A DNA stretch of 64,000 nt, from contig NZ_JACHOV010000002.1 in assembly GCF_014200045.1 (NCBI RefSeq), positions 248,001 to 312,000 of the forward strand, given 5' to 3'. The stretch's first letter is position 1. Every line of letters begins with the position of its first letter. Below are positions 3,471 through 55,071 of the stretch, piece by piece. A program made the position numbers and the translations under genes. This DNA comes from Rhizorhapis suberifaciens. GTDB lineage: Bacteria > Pseudomonadota > Alphaproteobacteria > Sphingomonadales > Sphingomonadaceae. Below the pieces are notes generated by a model, which worked only from the letters and a program-made list of their open reading frames with translations, was not told where the DNA came from and did not search any database.

Positions 3471-4099
3471 TGCCACATATCTATGAAACCGATGGCACGG
3501 CGATCTACCGTCAATCCTTTGGAATCATTCGCGCAGAAGCCGATCTTGCGCGCTTCTCCCCGGATGAAGAACAGGTCGCCGTTCGAATGATCCATGCCGC
3601 CGGGGTCGTGGAACTTGCCTCGAAGATCCACTTTTCCACCGATTTTGTCCGGGTGGCCCGCGCGACGCTCGAAAACGGTGCGCCCATTCTGTGCGATGCG
3701 CGTATGGTGACGGAGGGCATCACTCGTGCGCGCCTGCCGGCCGACAACGCATTAATCTGCACGCTGCACGCTCCCCAGGTGGCGGAGCTGGCCCAATCGA
3801 TGTCCAACACTCGCTCTGCCGCTGCACTGGAGCTTTGGCGTCCGCATCTGGCCGGCGCCCTCGTTGCAATTGGAAATGCGCCCACGGCGTTATTTCACCT
3901 GCTGAACATGCTGGAGGACCCCGATTGTCCCCGACCAGCAGCAATCATCGGCTGCCCCGTCGGCTTTGTAGGCGCAGTCGAATCCAAAGCGGCACTGTGG
4001 TCGGCGCAGCCCGTGCCCTCCTGCATTGTCGAGGGCCGGATGGGCGGCAGCGCGATTACCGTTGCTGCGATCAATGCCATTGCGAGCCGTGCGGAATGA
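3470..4099 (+). CDS. cobH: Precorrin-8X methylmutase CobH
   Basis: 209 residues, the usual length for the family. CobH moves the C11 methyl group to C12, turning precorrin-8X into hydrogenobyrinic acid. The conserved catalytic histidine is at residue 42 in RMIHAAG, and the family motifs VTEGITR and GCPVGFVGAVESK are present. The ATG at 3470 is taken as start, overlapping the cobG stop by one base; a TTG three bases upstream is less likely. The stop overlaps the cobI ATG. Confidence 0.96.
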   Translation: MPHIYETDGTAIYRQSFGIIRAEADLARFSPDEEQVAVRMIHAAGVVELASKIHFSTDFVRVARATLENGAPILCDARMVTEGITRARLPADNALICTLHAPQVAELAQSMSNTRSAAALELWRPHLAGALVAIGNAPTALFHLLNMLEDPDCPRPAAIIGCPVGFVGAVESKAALWSAQPVPSCIVEGRMGGSAITVAAINAIASRAE

Positions 4100-4821
4100 A
4101 GCCCGGCGTGGTTCACGGGGTAGGGCTGGGTCCGGGTTCACAAGATCTGCTCAGCGTCCGGGCGGACCGGCTGGTGCGTGGGGCGCGTCATGTCGCCTAT
4201 TTCCGCAAAGCCGGAAAGCCGGGGCAGGCGCGGCGGATCGTTGAGGGAATGCTGCGCGCCGATGTGGTCGAACTGCCCATGGAATATCCGGTAACCACGG
4301 AAATTCCGGTGGCCGATCCGCGCTACAATGGTTGCCTTTCGACATTTTATGCCGACTGCACTCGCCACCTGGCGACACTCGCCCGCGCGGGTGAGGACGT
4401 TGTCGTCCTGTGCGAAGGCGATCCGTTTTTCTACGGCTCGTTCATGCATCTGTACACGCGGCTTTGGGATCAGGTGCCGGTAGAGGTTGTGCCCGGCATT
4501 ACCGGCATGTCGGGCGCGTGGACGGCAACGGGCATCCCCATGACCTGGGGCGATGATGTGCTCACGGTGCTGACGGCTACCCTTCCCGAAGAGAATCTTG
4601 CACGCCGTATCCGCGATACCGACGCACTGGTGGTCATGAAGATCGGCCGCAATCTCGACAAGCTTCGCCGAGCGGTCACCGCCGCCGGACGGGATCATGA
4701 GGCATGGTTGGTGGAATATGCGGCCATGGCAGGTCAGCGCGTCACGCGACTGAGCGAAGCCGACGCGGTAGCTCCTTATTTCTCGATCCTGCTGATTCAT
4801 GGCCAGGGACGGCGGCCATGA
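4096..4821 (+). CDS. cobI: Precorrin-2 C20-methyltransferase CobI
   Basis: 241-residue SAM-dependent tetrapyrrole methyltransferase that makes precorrin-3A from precorrin-2. The N-terminal glycine loop GVGLGPGSQDLL, the mid-protein CEGDPFFYGS and the substrate-cleft VVPGITGMSGAW are all typical of the CobI/CbiL branch. The frame stays open upstream but that part only shadows cobH; the ATG at 4096 overlaps the cobH stop in ATGA fashion and gives a normal-length protein. It is followed by another 4-nt overlap into cobJ. Confidence 0.95.
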   Translation: MKPGVVHGVGLGPGSQDLLSVRADRLVRGARHVAYFRKAGKPGQARRIVEGMLRADVVELPMEYPVTTEIPVADPRYNGCLSTFYADCTRHLATLARAGEDVVVLCEGDPFFYGSFMHLYTRLWDQVPVEVVPGITGMSGAWTATGIPMTWGDDVLTVLTATLPEENLARRIRDTDALVVMKIGRNLDKLRRAVTAAGRDHEAWLVEYAAMAGQRVTRLSEADAVAPYFSILLIHGQGRRP

Positions 4822-5567
4822 GCGGCTGGATCGCCATTGCGGGATTAGGGCCGGGCGATGAAGCGCTGACCACGCCAGAGGTTGAGGCAGCTTTGGCGCA
4901 GGCGACAGACGTCGTCGGCTATATTCCCTATGTCGCCCGGGTAATGCCGCGCCCCGGACTGACGCTGCACAGTTCCGACAACCGGGTGGAAGTGGACCGC
5001 GCAATCCATGCCCTGGAAATGGCGGCGGCTGGACGCAAGGTAGTTGTGGTTTCGTCGGGCGATCCTGGCATCTTCGCGATGGCGGCGGCGGTGTTCGAAG
5101 CGCTGGAGACTGATCCCGACAAGTGGCGCGATCTCGACATCCGCGTGCTGCCAGGCATAACAGCCATGCTGGCCGCGAGCGCCCGGGCTGGCGCGCCGCT
5201 GGGGCACGATTTCTGCGTCATTAACCTGTCCGATAATTTGAAGCCCTGGGCGTTGATCGAACGTCGCTTGCGCCTGGCGGCGGAAGCTGACTTTGCCATC
5301 GCCATCTATAATCCGCGATCGAAAGCGCGACCCGAGGGGTTCACCAATGCCCTGGCTCTGCTGCGCGACATTTGTCAGGATGACCGTCCGGTTCTATTCG
5401 CCCGTGCCGTTACCACCCCACAGGAATGTTTGCGGATAACGCCTTTGTCGGATGCGCGGTCCGATATGGCGGACATGCGTACGCTGGTGATTATCGGTTC
5501 CAGCAAGACTCGGCTGATCGAACGCCCGGGCGGCTCAATCCTCTATACCCCCCGGTGGGCGTCATGA
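4818..5567 (+). CDS. cobJ: Precorrin-3B C17-methyltransferase CobJ
   Basis: 249-residue SAM-dependent methyltransferase that methylates C17 of precorrin-3B with ring contraction to give precorrin-4. Motifs visible are IAGLGPGDEALTTP at the N-terminus, VSSGDPGIFAMA and IYNPRSKARP, the last being characteristic of the CobJ/CbiH branch. The start is the ATG overlapping the cobI stop; the open frame upstream is cobI antiphase. Its last 25 bases overlap, tail to tail, the 3' end of cobK on the other strand. Confidence 0.95.
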   Translation: MSGWIAIAGLGPGDEALTTPEVEAALAQATDVVGYIPYVARVMPRPGLTLHSSDNRVEVDRAIHALEMAAAGRKVVVVSSGDPGIFAMAAAVFEALETDPDKWRDLDIRVLPGITAMLAASARAGAPLGHDFCVINLSDNLKPWALIERRLRLAAEADFAIAIYNPRSKARPEGFTNALALLRDICQDDRPVLFARAVTTPQECLRITPLSDARSDMADMRTLVIIGSSKTRLIERPGGSILYTPRWAS

Positions 5568-6292
5568 TTCAGCCAGCGCACCACTTCCTCAACGTCATTC
5601 GTCTCCAGTCTTGGCGGCAGGACGGGGCGGTCGATGATGATCACCGGAAGGCCCAGTCGGCGCGCGGCGATCAATTTGGCCTCGGCTCCATGGCCCCCGG
5701 CATTCTTGCAAATCACTATGTCGATGGCGTGAGTCTGCATCAGCCTCGTGTCGCCATCGGCGGTGAAGGGTCCTCGCTCGACCACGAGGCTGTGATGCGG
5801 CAGGAGCGGAGTATTTCCAGACGCATCCACGAAGCGCAAAAGATAATGATGCTGAGGCTGCGTGGCAAAAGCATCCACATGCATGCGCCCCAAAGCCAGC
5901 ATGACACGGCGCGAAGGGCCCGCCAGGACCCCCACCGCCGCGTCGACATTGCCCACCGCCTGCCACCGGTCCCCGGCGACGGGTCTCCAAGGTGGACGGG
6001 TGAGGGCGATATGCGCAATGCGCGCCTTACCCGCGGCGATAACCGCATTGGTGCTGATCGTGGCGGCGAATGGGTGAGTGGCATCCACCAGATGCGTCAC
6101 TTCATTGTCGCGCAGGTAGTGCGCGAGGCCATCGGCTCCGCCAAAGCCCCCTATACGGATCGGCACCGGCTGCGCCTTTGGGTGTTCGACCCGTCCTGCA
6201 TAGCTCAAGGTCGTGCGTATGCTGCGCTGGGCAAGGACCGCAACCAGCGCGCTTGCCTCCGTAGTACCTCCCAGGACAAGGACGTTTGGAAT
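5543..6292 (-). CDS. cobK: Precorrin-6A reductase CobK, probable ATT start
   Basis: NADPH-dependent reductase of precorrin-6A to dihydroprecorrin-6Y (precorrin-6B). Motifs: VDATHPFAA, LALGRMH and ICKNAGG. The conventional start at 6208 (TTG) would cut off the conserved N-terminus; reading further upstream in frame gives NVLVLGGTTEAS, the expected nucleotide-binding start of CobK. No ATG, GTG or TTG precedes that motif in the part of the antisense frame I read across cobL (to about 6420). An ATT at 6292 would give 249 residues, the normal family length, so it is used here provisionally. The gene is the only one reversed in the operon and would overlap cobL head to head by 2 bases and cobJ tail to tail by 25. 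Confidence 0.88.
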   Translation of the reverse strand: MPNVLVLGGTTEASALVAVLAQRSIRTTLSYAGRVEHPKAQPVPIRIGGFGGADGLAHYLRDNEVTHLVDATHPFAATISTNAVIAAGKARIAHIALTRPPWRPVAGDRWQAVGNVDAAVGVLAGPSRRVMLALGRMHVDAFATQPQHHYLLRFVDASGNTPLLPHHSLVVERGPFTADGDTRLMQTHAIDIVICKNAGGHGAEAKLIAARRLGLPVIIIDRPVLPPRLETNDVEEVVRWLNHDAHRGV

Positions 6293-7499
6293 GTCTGATG
6301 CTCCTGATGCGGCGTGGCTGACGATTGTAGGGCTGGGTGAAGACGGCCCGTCGGGCCTTTCCCTAGCAAGCCGCGAAGCGCTGGCGCAAGCCGAACTGGT
6401 GGCAGGTGCCGTGCGCCATCTGCTGCTGCTGCCGGATATTGCCTGCGAAACGATGGAATGGCCGGCGCCCTTCGATCAGGGAATTGCTCAGCTTTTGCAG
6501 CACCGGGGCCGGCGGGTGGTTATGCTGGCGTCAGGCGATCCTTTCTGGTTTGGCGCGGGTTCGGTGGTCGCTAAGCATCTCACCCCTGGCGAATGGGTCG
6601 CTTATCCCGCTCCTTCGACATTTAGCCTTGCCGCATCCCGGCTTGGTTGGGCACTCGATGAAACGGCCTGTCTGGGGCTGCACGCGGCTTCCTTTTCGCG
6701 GCTACGCCCACATCTTGCACCGGGTCAACGTCTGCTTGTGTTGGTACGGGATGGTAAGGCGGTGGCTGAACTCGCCGATTATCTGAGCGGTTGCGGCTTC
6801 GGAACATCGAAATTGCATGTGCTCGAAGCCCTGGGCGGCCCTCGCGAACGGATATGTGAGACAAGAGCCGAAGCGCCTGCGTGGGAAGATATCGCTCATC
6901 CCGTTGCCGTGGGCATCGAATGTGCAGGGGAGGGGGCCGTCCTCTCCCGCGTTTCTGGCATAAGCAATGCCCTGTTCGACCATGATGGACAGATCAGCAA
7001 GCAACCGGTGCGGGCTCTCACCCTATCCGCGCTGGCGCCTCGGCCGGGCGAAACCTTGTGGGATATCGGCGCGGGGTCGGGATCGGTCGGCATCGAATGG
7101 TTGCTCTCGCATCCCACGACACAGGCGATCGCGTTTGAGAGCGATCCAGTTCGTGCCGCGCGGGCGACAGCCAATGCGGAGGCGCTGGGCGTCGACCGGC
7201 TGAACGTGATCCTTGGTTCGGCACCGCAGATATTGGAAGGGCACCGTGCCCCGGACGCGGTATTTATCGGCGGCGGCTTGTCGCAGTCATTGCTGGAAAT
7301 ATTGTGGTCGCGACTAACCGTCGGCACCCGTTTGGTGGCGAACGCGGTGACGCTTGAATCTGAAGCGCTGCTTTCCCAATGGCATGCCTTGAAAGGCGGC
7401 AATCTCCTGCGGATCGAACTATCCGAAGCTGCTCCGCTCGGCGCCCGGCGTGGCTGGCGCGCTCATTATCCGATTGTGCAATGGAGCGTGGTTCTTTGA
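6291..7499 (+). CDS. cobL: Precorrin-6Y C5,15-methyltransferase CobL
   Basis: 402-residue two-domain enzyme that methylates C5 and C15 and decarboxylates the ring C acetate to give precorrin-8X. The N-terminal half is a tetrapyrrole methyltransferase (IVGLGEDGPSGLS, ASGDPFWFGAG); the C-terminal half is a CbiT-like class I methyltransferase with the SAM motif WDIGAGSGSVGIEWLL at about residue 260. The fusion of both halves is normal for the aerobic CobL. The ATG at 6291 is used; the frame upstream is only antisense cobK. The 3' end overlaps cobE by 19 bases. Confidence 0.95.
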   Translation: MSDAPDAAWLTIVGLGEDGPSGLSLASREALAQAELVAGAVRHLLLLPDIACETMEWPAPFDQGIAQLLQHRGRRVVMLASGDPFWFGAGSVVAKHLTPGEWVAYPAPSTFSLAASRLGWALDETACLGLHAASFSRLRPHLAPGQRLLVLVRDGKAVAELADYLSGCGFGTSKLHVLEALGGPRERICETRAEAPAWEDIAHPVAVGIECAGEGAVLSRVSGISNALFDHDGQISKQPVRALTLSALAPRPGETLWDIGAGSGSVGIEWLLSHPTTQAIAFESDPVRAARATANAEALGVDRLNVILGSAPQILEGHRAPDAVFIGGGLSQSLLEILWSRLTVGTRLVANAVTLESEALLSQWHALKGGNLLRIELSEAAPLGARRGWRAHYPIVQWSVVL

Positions 7500-7861
7500 T
7501 TGTGGCAGGCTTTGGCTTTCGGAAGGCAGCCGACCTTTCCTCTCTCCGGGCGGCGCTGGCATTGGCGCAAGCAGGAAATCCGCCTGTGTCCGCGCTCGCT
7601 GCGCCGGACGACAAGGCTCCGGCGCTTGCCACTCTGGCTGAGCTTTTGGGCCTGCCGCTGATCGCCGTCTCACAGGAGGCGTTGAGGGCAGCGCCCACCC
7701 AAACTCAATCTGCTGCAAGCCTGGGTGCCCGCGCGACCGGTAGCGTCGCCGAGGCGGCGGCTCTGGCCGCGGCAGGTCCGAGCGCACGCCTGATCACTAG
7801 CCGTCATATTTCGCCCGATCGAATGGCAAGCTGTGCCATCGCCCAAGGAACCCTCTCATGA
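7481..7861 (+). CDS. cobE: CobE / CbiG C-terminal domain protein
   Basis: 126-residue protein matching the small CobE family, equivalent to the C-terminal domain of the anaerobic-pathway CbiG. The pattern is an N-terminal [12 protein letters not shown] strand, then [13 protein letters not shown] and a C-terminal [14 protein letters not shown] stretch. CobE is found in aerobic cobalamin operons, but its exact function in the aerobic route is unsettled. The ATG at 7481 gives the family N-terminus; a longer frame upstream merely shadows cobL. Overlaps cobL by 19 bases and cobM by 4. Confidence 0.88.
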
Positions 7862-8640
7862 CCGTCCATTTCATAGGTGCTGGCCCTGGCGCTCCCGATC
7901 TTTTGACCTTGCGCGGCCGCGATCTGATCGCTTCATGCCAAGTGTGCCTCTATGCCGGTTCGCTGGTTCCGGCCGCCATATTGGACCACTGTCCGCCCGG
8001 CGCGCATATTGTCGATAGTGCGCCTATGTCTCTCGACGACATCATGGCGGAAATCCGGGCAGCCCATGCCGCCGGGCACGATGTCGCTCGGCTGCATTCG
8101 GGGGATCTGTCCATCTGGTCGGCCATGGGGGAGCAACTGCGTCGTTTGCGGGCAATGGGGGTGCCGTACACGGTAACGCCCGGCATCCCTGCCTTCGCCG
8201 CGGCCGCAGCTGCGCTTCAGGTGGAACTGACCCTACCAGAGCTGGCGCAATCAGTCGTTCTCACTCGCACGCCCGGGCGGGCCAGCACCATGCCGCCGGA
8301 TGAAAGCTTGACCAAATTCGCGGCGACCGGCGCTACGCTGGCTATCCATCTATCGATTCACAATCTCGATCATGTGATCTCCAGCCTGGTCCCGGCCTAT
8401 GGCCATGACTGCCCAGTTGCGGTGGTGTGGCGGGCGAGTTGGCCCGATCAGCAGATCGTGCGCGCTACCCTTGCGACCGTTCAGGAGGCGGTTGCCGACA
8501 GCATGGAGCGCACCGCGCTAATTCTGGTAGGCCGCGTACTGACGGCAGAAGCCTTTGCCGAAAGTAGCCTTTACGCCCCCGATTATGACCGCCGCTTTCG
8601 ACCCCGGGCGGGTTCTTCTTTCTTTAGGGCTCCAGAATGA
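7858..8640 (+). CDS. cobM: Precorrin-4 C11-methyltransferase CobM
   Basis: 260-residue SAM-dependent methyltransferase that makes precorrin-5 from precorrin-4. Family motifs: [16 protein letters not shown] at the N-terminus, [13 protein letters not shown] and [13 protein letters not shown], then the LTRTPGRAS segment common in the CobM/CbiF branch. The start ATG overlaps the cobE stop and the stop overlaps the cobB ATG, both by 4 bases. Confidence 0.96.
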
Positions 8641-9947
8641 GCAATCCTGGATTGATGATCGCCGCGCCCGCATCGGGCACAGGCAAGACGACTGTCATGC
8701 TGGGCCTATTACGGGCGCTAACGGAGGAGGGGCTGGCAGTGCAGCCCTTCAAGAGCGGCCCGGACTATATCGATCCCGCCTTTCATCGGGTCGCCTGTGG
8801 CCGTGCCTCTTTCAATCTGGATAGCTGGGCGATGAACGGCGCTCTTCTGGACAGGATCGCGGCGGAGGCTGCGGATGCCGACTTTGTGGTCGCTGAAGGT
8901 TCGATGGGCCTTTATGATGGCGTGGCTCAGCGCGGAGCCGTAGGTAACGGAGCCAGCGCAGAGATCGCGCGGCGCATGGGCTGGCCGGTGGTGCTGGTGG
9001 TCGATGTTTCCGGTCAGGCGCAATCGGCGGCAGCCACCGCTTTGGGTTTTGCGCATTATGATCCCGAACTGCCCTTTGCCGGAGTGATCCTGAACCGGGT
9101 TGCCAGTCCCAGGCATGAACGCCTTGCGCGAAGGGGCATGGAAGCGTCTGGAATCACGGTACTAGGCGCACTTCCCCGGCGAGGTGATCTGGTTTTGCCC
9201 GAACGCCATTTGGGTCTTGTTCAGGCAGCCGAGCATCCCGACCTGGATGCTGCTATCGCCGACTATGCCGCCTTCATGCGGGCGCATGCCGATTTGACCG
9301 CTATCAAGAGGGCGGCCGCCGCCCTTCCGAGTCCGTCCTCGACTAGCCCTCTGCCGCGCCCTCCCGCCCAACGTATCGCATTGGCGCAGGATGCCGCCTT
9401 TTCCTTCGTCTATCCCCACATGCTGGAGGGTTGGCGTCGCGCCGGAGCGGAGATTCTGCCTTTTTCACCGTTGGCCGATGAGGGGCCTGATCCCGATGCC
9501 GATCTGGTATGGCTGCCGGGAGGTTATCCGGAGCTTCATGCCGGGCGGCTTGCCGCTGCTGAAAATTTTCATGCCCGCTTGAAGCGCCATGCCGAAACGC
9601 GGCCGGTGCATGGGGAATGCGGCGGGTACATGGCTCTGGGCGCGGCGTTGATCGACAAGGACGGCACGCGACACCGCATGGCCGGTCTTTTGGGGCTGGT
9701 CACCAGCTATGAACAGCGGCGCATGCACCTGGGCTATCGGCACGCTGAACTTGTGGCGCCGATGGCGGGCTTTTCTGCCGGCGATAAGCTGCGCGGACAT
9801 GAATTTCATTATTCGACGATTCTGGAACAGCCCGATCCGCCGCTCGCCCGCGTGACCGATGCCGAGGGGATGGGCGTTTCGGAAACGGGATCGCGTCGTG
9901 ACCATGTGACCGGCACTTTCTTTCACTTGATAGCGCCAGCGTCATGA
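8637..9947 (+). CDS. cobB: Hydrogenobyrinic acid a,c-diamide synthase CobB
   Basis: 436-residue glutamine-dependent amidotransferase that amidates the a and c acetate side chains ahead of cobalt insertion. The N-terminal dethiobiotin-synthetase-like ATPase domain has a P-loop in [10 protein letters not shown] (residues 7-16) and EGSMGLYDG; the C-terminal class I glutaminase-like domain has the nucleophile cysteine in [11 protein letters not shown] near residue 326. Both domains are full length. ATGA overlaps link it to cobM and cobF. In this aerobic operon hydrogenobyrinic acid is the expected substrate rather than cobyrinic acid. Confidence 0.94.
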
Positions 9948-10717
9948 CTCAGTTGGTCAACCTTCACCTCATCGGGATTGGCACCGGCAATCCTGACCAT
10001 TTGACGCAAGAGGCGGTGAAGGCAATGAACGCTGCCGACCTCATCCTGCTTCCTTGCAAAGGTGATAGGAAATCGGATCTGATCGATCTGCGACGTGCAA
10101 TTTGCAGAACGGTGCTGACGGGGCCAAGGCGGGTCGTGGAGTTCGATCTGCCGGTGCGGGCGCAAACCCCGGACTATCTGGACGCTGTCAACCGCTGGCA
10201 TGATGAGATTGCCGAAGCTTGGGCACGGCAGATCAAGGAACATCTTCCCACTGGCGGCTCATTGGCTTTGCTGGTCTGGGGAGATCCCTCGCTTTATGAC
10301 AGCACCCTGCGCATTGCCGAGCGGCTGGGGGCTATGGAGCTGCCTTGCCAGCTTCGCGTTGTGCCGGGAATTACCAGTATTCAGGCGCTCACCTCAGCTC
10401 ATGCAATTCCGCTCAATGCTTTGGCCGAGCCGGTTTTGATCACGACAGGACGCCGTTTGCGCAACGATGGCTGGCCGGACGATGTCGACAGCTTGGTCGT
10501 AATGCTCGACAGCGGTTGCGCCTTCGATGTGCTGGCCCCAGAGGGAATCAGTATCTGGTGGGGCGCTTATTTGGGTATGCCGCATGAAGCGCTGGTTCAC
10601 GGCCAACTAGCGGACGTCAGCGCCCTGATCAGAGAACGGCGCGCGGAATTGCGGGCGCGGCATGGCTGGATCATGGATGTTTATTTGATGCGCAGGAATC
10701 ACGGCGATGAAGTCTGA
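9944..10717 (+). CDS. cobF: Precorrin-6A synthase (deacetylating) CobF
   Basis: 257-residue SAM-dependent methyltransferase that methylates C1 of precorrin-5 with loss of acetate. CobF is specific to the aerobic pathway and, with CobG, fixes the pathway type. Motifs: LIGIGTGNPDHLTQEAV, the CobF-specific LPCKGDRKSDLIDLRR and VWGDPSLYDSTLRI. Starts in a 4-base overlap with cobB; the 3' end overlaps bluB by 11 bases. Confidence 0.95.
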   Translation: MTQLVNLHLIGIGTGNPDHLTQEAVKAMNAADLILLPCKGDRKSDLIDLRRAICRTVLTGPRRVVEFDLPVRAQTPDYLDAVNRWHDEIAEAWARQIKEHLPTGGSLALLVWGDPSLYDSTLRIAERLGAMELPCQLRVVPGITSIQALTSAHAIPLNALAEPVLITTGRRLRNDGWPDDVDSLVVMLDSGCAFDVLAPEGISIWWGAYLGMPHEALVHGQLADVSALIRERRAELRARHGWIMDVYLMRRNHGDEV

Positions 10718-50800: not shown

Positions 50801-50983
50801 GTCAGCCTCTTTGTGGTCCGCCTCATAAACGAGGCATGCTGTGCGCCATGCAAACGACGGATGGGGACTTTGTTTTAATCGCCGTGCAGAAGGCGCGGAT
50901 TACCGAGAGTCCGGCCCACTCCCCAACTTGTCCATGCAATGCTATGGTCATCAGCTATTGGCATCGACAAACAGGTGCGGGCA

Positions 50984-51898
50984 ATGATGGGGACGGACCG
51001 GTCCTTTCATTTCAAAGCGAGCGACAAGAGCGCGCAAGGTGCGATCAGACGCGTTGCTCTAGGGCAGATTGACTCTGCCCTGGATGAGATCGGCAATAGC
51101 GATCTGACTTCTGAAAAAATCGTCCATCAAGTGCGAAAGCGCTGCAAGAAAGTGCGGGCCTTGATCCGGCTGGTGCGACCGGGATTTGCCGAATATGAAC
51201 ACGAAAATGCCAGCTTTCGCGATTTGGCGAGAACTTTGGGCGGTTTTCGCGATCAGGATGTGCTGATCCAGACCTGCGACAAAATCATGGCGCATTATGT
51301 CAAGGATGCAGATGACGACGCCATGGCATGTGTGCGCGAAAGGCTAGTTGCAGATAGACGACAGCTTGACCCTGGCGCTCCCGAAGAAATATTTGCGGCC
51401 TTCCGCAGCGGCATGACGCAAGCGCGGCAACGGGTGCAGATGTGGGTGGTCGAGGGCCATGGATATGCCGCATTTTCAGGAGGGCTGGCCCAAGTGCTAA
51501 GGCGCGCTCACAAGGCGATGGATGAGGCGAAATCCCATGCTATGCCGGAGCCGATGCATGAGTGGCGCAAAGCGGTGAAGTATCATGGCTATCATGCGCG
51601 GCTGCTACGCGAAATATGGCCTGAGGCGATGCTGTCCAATATAACGCTGACCTCGCAGCTGGCAGAGTTGCTGGGCGATTATCACGATCTCGCGGTGCTG
51701 CAACGAAGCTTGGCTGAGCAGCCGGAGCATTATGGCGGCGTGGAAGTCACACGATTGATTGGCGGCTTGGCGGACCGCCGCAAGAAAGAATTGGCGCAGG
51801 ATGCCTTCCGACAAGGTGCGTTATTGTTCGCGGAACGTCCAACAGCGCTTGCGAGACGCTGGGGCTGCTATTGGCAAATATGGCGTGGGGGAGATTGA
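50984..51898 (+). CDS. CHAD-domain protein
   Basis: 304 residues, all alpha-helical, with the conserved histidine/lysine/arginine patches of CHAD: HQVRKRCKKVRALIRLVR, RTLGGFRDQDVLI and HEWRKAVKYHGYHARLL. CHAD domains bind polyphosphate. The ATG at 50984 gives the family N-terminus FHFKASDK. CYTH follows after 8 bases, so the two halves usually fused in CYTH-CHAD proteins are separate here. Confidence 0.85.
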   Translation: MMGTDRSFHFKASDKSAQGAIRRVALGQIDSALDEIGNSDLTSEKIVHQVRKRCKKVRALIRLVRPGFAEYEHENASFRDLARTLGGFRDQDVLIQTCDKIMAHYVKDADDDAMACVRERLVADRRQLDPGAPEEIFAAFRSGMTQARQRVQMWVVEGHGYAAFSGGLAQVLRRAHKAMDEAKSHAMPEPMHEWRKAVKYHGYHARLLREIWPEAMLSNITLTSQLAELLGDYHDLAVLQRSLAEQPEHYGGVEVTRLIGGLADRRKKELAQDAFRQGALLFAERPTALARRWGCYWQIWRGGD

Positions 51899-51906
51899 GC
51901 ACCCCC

Positions 51907-52386
51907 ATGGGACAGGAGATCGAGCGTAAGTTTCTGGTTTCGGGGGACGGTTGGCGCAGCGAACCGGGCAAAGAGACCGAGATCGTTCAAGGCTATATTG
52001 CGGTTGGCGATAAGGCGCAGGTGCGGGTTCGCATATTGAACGGCACATCAGCCGTGATCACGATCAAGGATTGCAAGCAAGAGCTTGTACGTCAGGAATT
52101 TGAATATCCCATTCCTTTGTCTGATGCGCGGGCCATGCTCGCGCTGCGCACCGGGAATCTCATTGAAAAGACGCGCAGGCGCATTCAACGGGATGGCGTT
52201 TTGTGGGAGATCGACTGTTTCCGCGGCGAACTCGACGGCCTAATCCTGGCCGAAGTGGAATTGGATGTTCCTGAGAAGACAATCTCATTGCCTGATTGGC
52301 TCGGACGAGAGGTGACCGGGGACCCGAACTACTACAACGTCATGCTGGCGCTCGGTCCTGAAGCGATTCGGTTCAAGTCGGATTAA
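51907..52386 (+). CDS. CYTH-domain triphosphatase
   Basis: 159 residues of the triphosphate tunnel metalloenzyme (CYTH) fold. The N-terminal EIERKFLVSG carries the ExExK signature; GTSAVITIKDCKQ and LAEVELDVPEK provide further metal and phosphate-binding charges. It probably hydrolyses inorganic triphosphate or a polyphosphate-like substrate. It is encoded just after the CHAD gene, suggesting a functional unit on polyphosphate. The ATG at 51907 is preferred because upstream sequence overlaps the CHAD gene. Confidence 0.88.
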   Translation: MGQEIERKFLVSGDGWRSEPGKETEIVQGYIAVGDKAQVRVRILNGTSAVITIKDCKQELVRQEFEYPIPLSDARAMLALRTGNLIEKTRRRIQRDGVLWEIDCFRGELDGLILAEVELDVPEKTISLPDWLGREVTGDPNYYNVMLALGPEAIRFKSD

Positions 52387-52957
52387 CGGTCAGCCATCCC
52401 TGCAATTCCGCGATCATCCAGATGCCCAGCGCTAGAAACAGCGCCGCTGCGGCGAGGTGCATTACCCTCATCGGAATGCGTTTAACCAGGGTGTCCCCTA
52501 ATAGGACGGCAGGAACATTGGCGATCATCATGCCGAGGGTTGTGCCCGTGGTGACCCAGACGACGGAGCCGAATTGGGCCCCCAGTGCAATAGTGGCGAC
52601 CTGCGTCTTGTCGCCCATTTCCACGATGAAGAAGGCAATAAGGGTGGTGACGAACGCCCCGAAACGGGCTGGTTTGTTTCCGTCATCGTCCATCTTGTCG
52701 GGAATGAGCGTCCAGATCGCCATGGCGATGAAGCCTGCGGCGACCGCATAGCGGAATGCTTCGCTGTCCAGCAGGCTCGCGATCTGCTGTCCGGCGAGCG
52801 CGGCAAGGAAATGATTGGCAAGCGTTGCGCCCAATATTCCCAATGAAATGGGTAGGGGCTTGCGAAAACGGCTGGCGAGCAGGATCGCCAGCAATTGCGT
52901 CTTGTCACCCATTTCGGCGAGAGCGACAATCGCTGTTGAAGTGAGAAACGCATCCAT
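52373..52957 (-). CDS. GDT1/TMEM165 (UPF0016) family cation exporter
   Basis: 194 residues with six helices arranged as two repeats, each with the family motif EMGDKTQ (ALAEMGDKTQLLAILLA and VEMGDKTQVATIALG). Members export Mn2+ (sometimes Ca2+). Only 23 bases separate it from the precorrin-2 dehydrogenase start upstream, so there is no room for a yybP-ykoY riboswitch. It overlaps the CYTH gene by 14 bases tail to tail. Confidence 0.88.
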   Translation of the reverse strand: MDAFLTSTAIVALAEMGDKTQLLAILLASRFRKPLPISLGILGATLANHFLAALAGQQIASLLDSEAFRYAVAAGFIAMAIWTLIPDKMDDDGNKPARFGAFVTTLIAFFIVEMGDKTQVATIALGAQFGSVVWVTTGTTLGMMIANVPAVLLGDTLVKRIPMRVMHLAAAALFLALGIWMIAELQGWLTVNPT

Positions 52958-52980: not shown

Positions 52981-53751
52981 TCAGACGCGCCATCCCAGAA
53001 AGAGCGACAGCCCCGGCTTGGGATGGGCCGGGGGAGCCGGCGTTTCCACCCGAGCCGCATCGGCGCGGGCGCGGTCGACGATGACCGCTGGAACGCCAGG
53101 AGCATAGTAAATCGTGTCGGCCCAGCCCAGCAGTCGCGCGGAACGGAGGGTGAGATCGTCGGGATCAGGCGAGGTAAGGACGATTTCGATCAGCTGTGGG
53201 ACTGTGGTTGTATCTGGCCGGGCAAGCCACTCCTGCACCGCTTCGGGCCTGTCGGGTGCAAAGGGATCAAGCGGTCCGCCAGGGCTCAGCGCCGCATCGA
53301 TGGCACGCCGCCGCTCGTTCGCATTGGGCCAGCGCGCCTTCATGGCTACCCTGGCACCACCTAACCTCCGCGCCAAAAGGCCAAGGCTCGTAGGCAGCAA
53401 ATTTTCCAGCCGCTGCCTGATCGTCTTCGCCAGCCCCGCCGAAGCGCCTCCGGTACCAATGGCGATCAGTACGGGATCGCGATCGATGATGGCCGGAAGG
53501 GTAAAGTCGCAATGATCCGGCCGATCCACCGCGTTCACCAATATGCCCCGCTTCTTCAGCTGGCCGATGACGGCCAGGGCGATCGCCTCGTCCTCGACCG
53601 CAACTATGGCTAGTTGCGCCTCGTCGGATTCACCGACAATGCGCGCGCCCGCCCGCTCCAGCAGCCGCGCCTTTGCCTGTGCTGCTTCGCCTTGGCCGAC
53701 CAGAATGACCGGTCGATCCTTCAGGCGAACATACAGCGGCAGGCTGTGCAT
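52981..53751 (-). CDS. Precorrin-2 dehydrogenase with vestigial SUMT half-domain
   Basis: 256 residues. The N-terminal Rossmann domain (PVILVGQGEAAQAKARLLER) and NAVDRPDHCDFTLPAI with IGTGGASAGLAKTIRQRLE match the precorrin-2 dehydrogenase/sirohydrochlorin ferrochelatase part of CysG. After about residue 188 a segment reads SPDPDDLTLRSARLLGWADT and PAVIVDRARADAAR, like the N-terminal quarter of uroporphyrinogen-III methyltransferase but with the glycine-rich SAM loop changed, ending after only about 50 residues. The enzyme would oxidise precorrin-2 for siroheme and draw on the same precursor as the cob operon. Confidence 0.85.
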   Translation of the reverse strand: MHSLPLYVRLKDRPVILVGQGEAAQAKARLLERAGARIVGESDEAQLAIVAVEDEAIALAVIGQLKKRGILVNAVDRPDHCDFTLPAIIDRDPVLIAIGTGGASAGLAKTIRQRLENLLPTSLGLLARRLGGARVAMKARWPNANERRRAIDAALSPGGPLDPFAPDRPEAVQEWLARPDTTTVPQLIEIVLTSPDPDDLTLRSARLLGWADTIYYAPGVPAVIVDRARADAARVETPAPPAHPKPGLSLFLGWRV

Positions 53752-53752
53752 C

Positions 53753-55015
53753 TTACCGGGCCCAGTCCGGGATCACATCGCCTTCGATCAGCGCCTCGAT
53801 CGGCGGACGTTTTCTTACGACCGCCCATTTGTCGCCTGATACCAGGACCTCAGGCGTCAGCGCCCGGCTGTTGTAGGTGTTGGCCATGGTCGCACCATAG
53901 GCCCCGGCAGTCATGAAGGCGACCAGATCACCGGGCTTCACGACATCCAGGTCACGATTGCGTGCGAAGGTGTCGCCTGTCTCGCATACCGGACCAACCA
54001 CTGTCGCTTCAGCACGCTTGCCGCGCGGCTTCACCGCCCGAATGTCATGCCAGGCATCGTAAAGGCTCGGCCGAAGCAGGTCGTTCATCGCTGCATCGAC
54101 AATGACGAAGGGTTGCGTCGCGCCCTGCTTCACCCGAATAACCCGTGACAGAAGTGCGCCCGCATTGCCGACGATAACCCGGCCGGGCTCAAAGACCAGC
54201 CGAACATTCCACCCAGACGTTACCTGCTTCACCATTTCCCCATAAGCGGTGGGGCTAGGGGGAACGGGCAGGGCTGGATCATAAGGAACGCCAAGCCCGC
54301 CGCCAAGATCGGCCGTGCGAATATTATGTCCTTCATCGCGCAATGCTTCGATCAGCATGCCGACCTTTGTAAAGGCGGATTGCAGCGGAGCCAGATCGGT
54401 AAGCTGGCTGCCGATGTGAACGGCAATGCCCTGAACGTCGAGCCCCGCCAACTGCGCTGCCCGATCATAGCTCGCGATCGCTCGATCATAGGGGATGCCA
54501 AACTTGTTTTCAGACTTTCCGGTCGAAATTTTCTCATGCGTGCCGGCATCGACGTCGGGATTGATCCGATAGGCGACCGCTGCGACCTTGCCCATGGAAA
54601 GAGCAACTTCCGAAAGCATTTCCGCTTCAGGTTCGCTTTCAAGGTTGAACTGGAAAATTCCTAGTTCAAGGGCAAGGCGCATTTCCTCTTCGGTCTTGCC
54701 GACGCCCGAAAAAACAATTTTGCCAGGCGCGACGCCGGCGAAAACCGCCCGCCGCAGCTCGCCGCCCGATACGACGTCGGCGCCCAGGCCAAGACGCGCC
54801 AGCGTCGCCAGTACCGCGCCATTGGGATTGGCCTTGACGGCAAAGGCTACGAGCGGATCGGGAAGCGGTTCCAGAGCTTCCCTGAAGACGCGAACATGTC
54901 GTTCCAGCGTAGCCGTGGAATAGATATAAACAGGCGTGCCGACAGCCTCGGCTATGGCCGTCATCGGCACTTGCTCGACATGCATTAGGCCGTCTTGATA
55001 TTGGAAGTGGTCCAT
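53753..55015 (-). CDS. lysA: Diaminopimelate decarboxylase LysA
   Basis: 420-residue PLP enzyme, last step of lysine synthesis from meso-diaminopimelate. AFAVKANPNGAVLATLARL carries the PLP lysine, and CETGDTFARNRDL is the C-terminal catalytic cysteine motif. The ATG at 55015 gives the conserved N-terminus (DHFQYQDG); an ATG at 55057 is possible. It ends one base from the precorrin-2 dehydrogenase start, and lptM lies upstream. Confidence 0.95.
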   Translation of the reverse strand: MDHFQYQDGLMHVEQVPMTAIAEAVGTPVYIYSTATLERHVRVFREALEPLPDPLVAFAVKANPNGAVLATLARLGLGADVVSGGELRRAVFAGVAPGKIVFSGVGKTEEEMRLALELGIFQFNLESEPEAEMLSEVALSMGKVAAVAYRINPDVDAGTHEKISTGKSENKFGIPYDRAIASYDRAAQLAGLDVQGIAVHIGSQLTDLAPLQSAFTKVGMLIEALRDEGHNIRTADLGGGLGVPYDPALPVPPSPTAYGEMVKQVTSGWNVRLVFEPGRVIVGNAGALLSRVIRVKQGATQPFVIVDAAMNDLLRPSLYDAWHDIRAVKPRGKRAEATVVGPVCETGDTFARNRDLDVVKPGDLVAFMTAGAYGATMANTYNSRALTPEVLVSGDKWAVVRKRPPIEALIEGDVIPDWAR

Positions 55016-55071
55016 TGGGACTCCAGGGTAGAAAGGCTTAAAGGGCCAAATCAGCAAATCGTAAAAGGGTA

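Follow-up and report, generated by a model that had tools for sequence, protein, structure and literature searches.

A presumed siroheme synthase of sphingomonads with a conserved, methyltransferase-dead half of a SUMT domain

The window analysed in this work is a stretch of 64,000 nucleotides from Rhizorhapis suberifaciens. It hosts a gene at 52981..53751 on the minus strand, with an ATG at 53751 and a stop codon at 52981-52983, that encodes 256 amino acids. A preliminary description of this DNA had these coordinates right, and left out the strand. Judging by its sequence, the product is presumed to be a precorrin-2 dehydrogenase/sirohydrochlorin ferrochelatase with a partial, methyltransferase-dead domain of the uroporphyrinogen-III methyltransferase (SUMT) type, i.e. 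a half-SUMT siroheme synthase. Siroheme is a cofactor used in sulfate and nitrate assimilation. The upstream neighbour on the same strand (53753..55057), separated by one base, we take to be lysA (diaminopimelate decarboxylase). Of 56 named sphingomonad loci, 51 have a homologue of it upstream of the half-SUMT gene; we list it for its position and conserved adjacency, and not as part of the function. The membrane protein gene downstream (52373-52957) has no match in the same 56 loci. Two further genes of the window, which overlap (50939-51898 and 51871-52386), presumably encode a CHAD protein and a CYTH protein.

Residues 1-155 of the product make up the CysG_B precorrin-2 dehydrogenase/ferrochelatase region. 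The protein matches TIGR01470 (CysG_B) at 131.5 bits, over the cut-off of 62.3, and phmmer finds the CysG of the PDB at 1e-28, which bears out the CysG-B type domain that had been proposed before. Within this region, residues 1-118 (53398..53751; all features are on the minus strand) hold the Rossmann part and the start of the dimerisation domain, and residues 119-155 (53287..53397) form a dimerisation/helical region, placed by a structure match and by a CysG_dimeriser match (PF10414) of 16.9 bits, under the cut-off of 23. There follow a variable linker/helical region, residues 156-184 (53200..53286), which has a dN/dS of 0.26 against 0.09-0.14 in the adjoining regions, and finally the tail, residues 185-256 (52984..53199), with which this work is mainly concerned.

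Searches with the tail alone give weak matches. It meets PF00590 (TP_methylase) over positions 11-49 with an E-value of 0.008 and 16.5 bits (PF00590 scores were 14.1 to 16.5 bits, under the curated cut-off of 27.8), and TIGR01469 (SUMT/CobA) at 11.6 bits where more than 185 are required. The CysG model NF007922 matches the tail over CysG 228-268 (E 3e-5) and the whole protein at 158 bits, under its cut-off of 400. A profile of 182 sphingomonad tails, on the other hand, was matched by hhalign to the SUMT domain of full CysG at 98.5% (E 2.3e-15, 47 columns), and all 20 column-shuffled controls stayed below 1.5%. Since the profile-profile match is strong and the shuffled controls fail, the homology between the tail and a part of SUMT's first lobe is real.

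The features of a complete SUMT are absent. The loop that binds S-adenosylmethionine (SAM), GAGPGD in CysG, reads SPDPDD at residues 194-199 (53155..53172), as the preliminary description had claimed; A217 stands for D248 and A239 for K270; and the chain ends at the position of GGDP without having that motif. The same description had placed the SUMT-like stretch at residues 188-236 and had taken it for the start of the domain, with the rest missing. The likeness and the loss of the catalytic part both stand, while superposition extends the stretch to about 185-256, i.e. to the C-terminus, and a last strand (residues 248-254, 52990..53010) is also present where SUMT has its strand just ahead of GGDP. 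An alternative in which SUMT had been deleted internally and had retained its extreme end, with GLSLFLGWRV corresponding to PALIIVGRVV of CysG, was considered and dropped, as the structural alignment stops at about CysG 303, short of the remainder of the domain.

Structure prediction, which had been suggested as a check together with profile alignment to CysG, agrees with the profile match. The AlphaFold2 model has a mean pLDDT of 94.2 and a predicted order of strand-helix-strand-helix-strand-strand in residues 186-254. Residues 1-256 of the model superpose on residues 1-303 of Salmonella CysG (Z 17.4, 252 residues, 2.7 Å), which would make the half-SUMT coincide in position with the SUMT module in chain A of CysG; chain B fits worse (Foldseek TM about 0.58 versus about 0.8). 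Residues 182-256 by themselves superpose on SUMT and CbiF with a VIA Z of about 9 over about 70-76 residues, and Met8p and SirC have the same CysG_B fold (VIA Z 11.7 and 13.1). The model of a half form from another family (L125, 277 amino acids; pLDDT 90.1) has its elements in the same order and fits CysG over its whole length, with a Z of about 21 and an rmsd of 3.3-4.6 Å.

The half form is widespread in the family. A CysG match was found in 136 of 149 family genomes, and in 134 of these it has the half-SUMT form; named relatives that share it include Sphingomonas, Sphingobium, Blastomonas, Parasphingopyxis and others. Taking one locus per matching genome (136), there are 130 half-SUMT forms that are complete at that end, with 217-295 amino acids and a median of 258. 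In four genomes (G034, G113, G025 and G010) the half form lies in pieces at contig ends, and the two pieces that reach the half-SUMT (L278 and L279) have the same motif. The survey for longer versions, which had also been suggested, turned up full CysG (480-aa frames) only in G024 and G109 (L148 and L149; one genus). Because these group with Gammaproteobacteria in the tree described below, they look acquired, apparently in place of the half form. One genome, G084, has a second, shortened half-CysG paralogue (L178, G084:C4:357000-359200) of 203 amino acids with a proline-rich stretch, which is outside all counts. It had been asked whether the segment is a normal tail across all bacteria, and this fails: a complete SUMT is present in gammaproteobacterial relatives and in many of the alphaproteobacterial ones.

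In order to compare what has been kept and lost, residues were counted at E. coli CysG positions in four groups, namely full CysG (38), stand-alone CobA (36, after removal of the full CysG L292 and with 17 fused loci set aside), sphingomonad half forms (182) and other half forms (27). The sphingomonad set of 182 is made up of the query plus 181 further sequences, all distinct and 200-300 amino acids long, from the family genomes and 55 named loci; near relatives among them are not independent. Half-domain counts were made by alignment, an earlier regular expression having missed several true cases. Rows left out are duplicates (L039, L043, L055, L070, L072, L151 and L222), contig-end pieces (L169 and L275-L279), two frames that are short or broken within SUMT (L097 and L109), a 424-aa frame whose end is unlike SUMT (L172), and CysG_B-only or SirC-like frames of 157-196 amino acids (L170, L173 and L175-L177). 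L118 was excluded from the aligned set by its length, and L334 and L336 were added after alignment.

A point absent from the preliminary description is that the N-terminal Rossmann fold is about 28 residues short. The gap falls in the beta2-alphaB-beta3 region (residues 38-44, 53620..53640), where pairwise alignment sets residues 38 to 42 of the query against 39 to 71 of CysG. As a sphingomonad novelty this was dropped: the shortening occurs at that place in 181/182 sphingomonad forms, and also in 14/38 full CysG and 9/27 other half forms, and it is therefore older or recurrent.

Within the SUMT part the pattern is clear. The half forms lose residues that CobA keeps and keep those that CobA mostly loses, while full CysG keeps both sets. 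Residues of the first kind are G222, K270 and P304, each present in 38/38 full CysG and 36/36 CobA; G222 remains in 0/182 sphingomonad and 6/27 other half forms, K270 in 0/182 and 1/27, and P304 in 1/182 and 4/27. D248 is still Asp in 56/182 and 16/27, respectively. The second kind is represented by R260, found in 36/38 full CysG, 5/36 CobA and every half form aligned (182/182 and 27/27), and by reading in L334, L336 and L118 as well, which makes 30/30 non-sphingomonad half forms; and by D262, found in 35/38 full CysG, 8/36 CobA, 182/182 sphingomonad and 19/27 other half forms, the remaining eight having Glu. Both residues are present in all 130 complete family copies. In the query they are R229 and D231, within R227-A-R229-A-D231-A232 (53056..53073, equivalent to CysG 258-263).

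The residue between them behaves differently. R261 is kept in 36/38 full CysG, 2/36 CobA and 27/27 other half forms, and in 19/182 sphingomonad half forms. The pairs at positions 258 and 261 of the sphingomonad forms are R-A (162), R-R (14), L-R (5) and R-T (1), so that every sequence with Ala or Thr in place of R261 has Arg at position 258, one turn of the helix away, and in none of the 182 is Arg missing from both. The query follows the majority, with A230 in the place of R261 and an Arg at 227 instead.

According to Pennington et al. (2020, PMC7018833), R260, R261 and D262 of the SUMT domain form the back of the CysG_B dehydrogenase/chelatase pocket in Salmonella CysG, a feature absent from Met8p. 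Against an S128A background of 47.4 for the dehydrogenase and 203 for the chelatase, the values given there are 0 and 3.1 for R260A, 1.4 and 13.6 for R261A, and 20.3 and 4.7 for D262A. We think it probable, by analogy with these mutants, that the sphingomonad protein is a trimmed CysG whose half-SUMT has been retained as part of the dehydrogenase/chelatase pocket in a two-protein siroheme pathway.

Could the half-domain serve only to brace the dimer or the helical domain, with R229 and D231 paired in a salt bridge inside it and out of contact with the substrate? Residues of the fold have been retained too (A242 in 174, D243 in 178 and L231 in 179 of the 182 sphingomonad forms, and A242 in 25/27 other half forms and 38/38 full CysG), and the AlphaFold2 model is ordered throughout, both of which would suit a brace. 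However, the stand-alone CobAs keep A242 in 36/36 sequences and yet mostly lack R260 and D262, and the equivalents of R229 and D231 belong to a pocket in the Salmonella enzyme (PMC7018833). We regard a mere brace as unlikely.

The equivalents of D104, N101 and R175 are invariant in the 182 sphingomonad half forms, D104 being D76 here (53524..53526). The equivalent of P133, the proline platform of CysG, is A105 (53437..53439); Ala stands here in 182/182 sphingomonad forms, whereas Pro is found in 27/27 of the other half forms and in 38/38 of the full CysG sequences, and R137 is replaced by Lys in 153/182. Activity by analogy with CysG is therefore not assured, given that P133G and P133H variants have lower activity in Salmonella (PMC7018833).

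CysG and CobA (TIGR01469) occur together in 134 of 149 family genomes and are both absent from 12; CysG occurs without CobA in G022 and G025, and CobA without CysG in G082. Sulfite/nitrite reductase-type proteins (PF01077) were found in 137 of 149. Eleven of the 12 genomes without such a reductase are also without CysG and CobA, and the twelfth is G022, which is 67% complete; those with a reductase and no CysG match are G082 (66% complete) and G097 (about 660 contigs). The genome studied here has two CobA genes over the cut-off, on contigs other than that of the half-SUMT gene, in line with the earlier suggestion that methylation has passed to a stand-alone CobA. One adjoins a siroheme-type reductase (PF01077 over its cut-off, the NCBIfam nitrite/sulfite reductase models under theirs), with a CysH over its cut-off also beside it; the other lies directly after a molybdopterin oxidoreductase similar to assimilatory nitrate reductase, at scores under the models' cut-offs.

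It is conceivable that the half-SUMT protein is a dehydrogenase only, with iron inserted by another protein. The altered P133 and R137 equivalents could be read in this way, and alphaproteobacteria such as Paracoccus use CbiX (PMC4063343). In searches of the 149 family genomes, however, CbiK was found in none and CbiX in one, where it has an internal stop, even though 137 have a sulfite/nitrite reductase-type protein; and the D104 equivalent is invariant. A separate chelatase thus seems quite improbable to us. Because CbiX and CbiK are nearly absent while siroheme-type reductases are present, the half form is, as far as sequence can tell, the strongest candidate for the two steps, dehydrogenation and the insertion of iron, and probably performs both.

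The preliminary description regarded the tail as a possible relic of a full CysG. A remnant of SUMT without methyltransferase residues it is, but the idea of a functionless relic in decay, whose job has been taken by CobA, fares badly. We relied on dN/dS from 19 disjoint close pairs, which gave 0.089 for CysG_B, 0.124 for residues 119-155, 0.262 for the linker and 0.142 for the half-SUMT (185-235); a rough first set of 57 pairs, many of them far apart, had given 0.39 for the half-SUMT, 0.32 for CysG_B and 0.56 for the linker. The half-SUMT is under purifying selection. The last 21 residues do vary (0.329), as decay would predict, and the methyltransferase residues are gone. Nevertheless, R260 and D262 persist in every complete family copy and every distinct sequence, the domain is predicted to be ordered, and none of the extracted copies represents a family member that has deleted the tail and kept the siroheme enzymes. 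Recent decay was rejected on the dN/dS values and conservation, and we hold an idle relic to be very improbable. Equally hard to credit is a docking arm by which CobA would hand precorrin-2 over directly, an idea to which the co-occurrence of CysG and CobA and the adjacency of their genes in G040 lend something, given that the conserved residues correspond to those of a known pocket and that both CobA genes of this genome lie on contigs other than that of the half-SUMT gene.

Half forms are found beyond the family. In a class-level survey, 176 of 387 genomes had a match, and among the intermediate-size matches listed there are at least 27 half-form loci from at least 25 genomes of the class (268-353 amino acids where aligned). 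Two loci from Acetobacteraceae MAGs (L095 and L103) and one from Psychromonas, in the Gammaproteobacteria (L118), are further half forms. The Psychromonas locus (sp. MB-3u-54, about 3992-4930) encodes a protein of 313 amino acids in which the SAM loop is dead and RRDA remains. The degree of SUMT loss differs among the non-sphingomonad half forms. A TIGR01469 match was found in 24 of 25 class genomes with half forms, the exception being G240, and in some, e.g. G400, one such match is a full CysG.

A quick tree of 97 CysG_B domains, 27 of them from other half forms, places the sphingomonad forms in one clade. The labels full and half require 14 changes on this tree, at least three of them forced by well supported branches, with the provisos that the tree includes long rows, that its support stars are less reliable and that it does not distinguish gain from loss. 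Independent trimming of CysG to a half form is therefore likely, and several of the non-sphingomonad half forms probably arose in this way.

Based on these results, we propose the following. The ancestor would be a full CysG in which the SUMT module ceased to be catalytic and was cut back to a portion of its first lobe, of the order beta-alpha-beta-alpha-beta-beta. CobA, encoded elsewhere, would make precorrin-2, and the half-SUMT protein, presumably a homodimer like CysG, would oxidise it with NAD+ and then insert iron. The half-SUMT would have been kept because it carries R229 and D231, which would close the back of the tetrapyrrole pocket. Catalysis, dimerisation and the direction of change are inferred here, and the role of R229 and D231 from the Salmonella mutants. 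More generally, we lean towards the view that SUMT has two separable jobs in CysG, i.e. methylation and walling the chelatase pocket, and that several proteobacterial lineages independently gave methylation to CobA and kept a dead half-SUMT as the wall.

Some observations do not sit easily with a pocket wall. The reductase-linked CobA of this genome has RRDA at the R260-D262 positions, and 5/36 stand-alone CobAs have R260, so that fused enzymes are not alone in having the motif. The CysG_B part of E. coli CysG, in a gene dissection of 1994, was reportedly active by itself. One relative (L170) consists of CysG_B alone, with no half-SUMT, and its genome also holds a full-length frame of 464 amino acids. 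Met8p, too, works without a SUMT half. Finally, the Salmonella R260A, R261A and D262 variants retain some complementation in E. coli (PMC7018833).

If our proposal is correct, the surprise of the Salmonella mutants, that the chelatase needs SUMT residues, becomes a natural experiment that spans a bacterial family and extends to other lineages. Pennington et al. suggested that fusion in CysG gave the chelatase an advantage, and our proposal would lend weight to this. It also offers a reason why the fusion has lasted, and speaks against dismissing tails of this kind as junk. At 256 amino acids, the protein is also a small natural candidate siroheme dehydrogenase/chelatase for structural work. 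In organisms of this sort, the supply of precorrin-2 and the synthesis of siroheme would be separate. The present one has other tetrapyrrole methylases as well: a run of them lies in the window at about 4111-10618, with five PF00590 matches. It probably serves cobalamin synthesis, and precorrin-2 is therefore a likely branch point in this organism.

Three layouts of the siroheme pathway are set out in a 2020 review (PMC7242693): SirA, C and B; CobA or Met1p with Met8p; and CysG. Full CysG and stand-alone Met8p types are also named in PMC2674652. CobA with a half-SUMT CysG looks like a further layout, and our search, which was confined to the open-access literature, turned up no account of such a CysG.

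Each known system shares something with this one. The closest is CysG of E. coli and Salmonella (PIRSF036426, NF007922), which has the same domain order, the same CysG_B, the SUMT at the same position in the model and the R260, D262, D104 and N101 equivalents. The SUMT of the half-SUMT protein, in contrast, stops at the strand before GGDP and is without SAM and catalytic residues, its Rossmann fold is about 28 residues shorter, Ala stands for P133, and the second Arg is at 258 rather than 261. Met8p (PIRSF004999) and SirC likewise work with a separate SUMT partner and have the same CysG_B fold, but lack any SUMT part, whereas here a half-SUMT remains with its pocket residues. CobA (TIGR01469) is homologous to the tail in part of its first lobe; the tail has no SAM loop, K270 or GGDP, and does have the R260 and D262 that most CobAs miss. 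CbiX of alphaproteobacteria such as Paracoccus (PMC4063343) also completes siroheme in the class, although it is a type II chelatase of a different family, with no match in 148 of the 149 family genomes.
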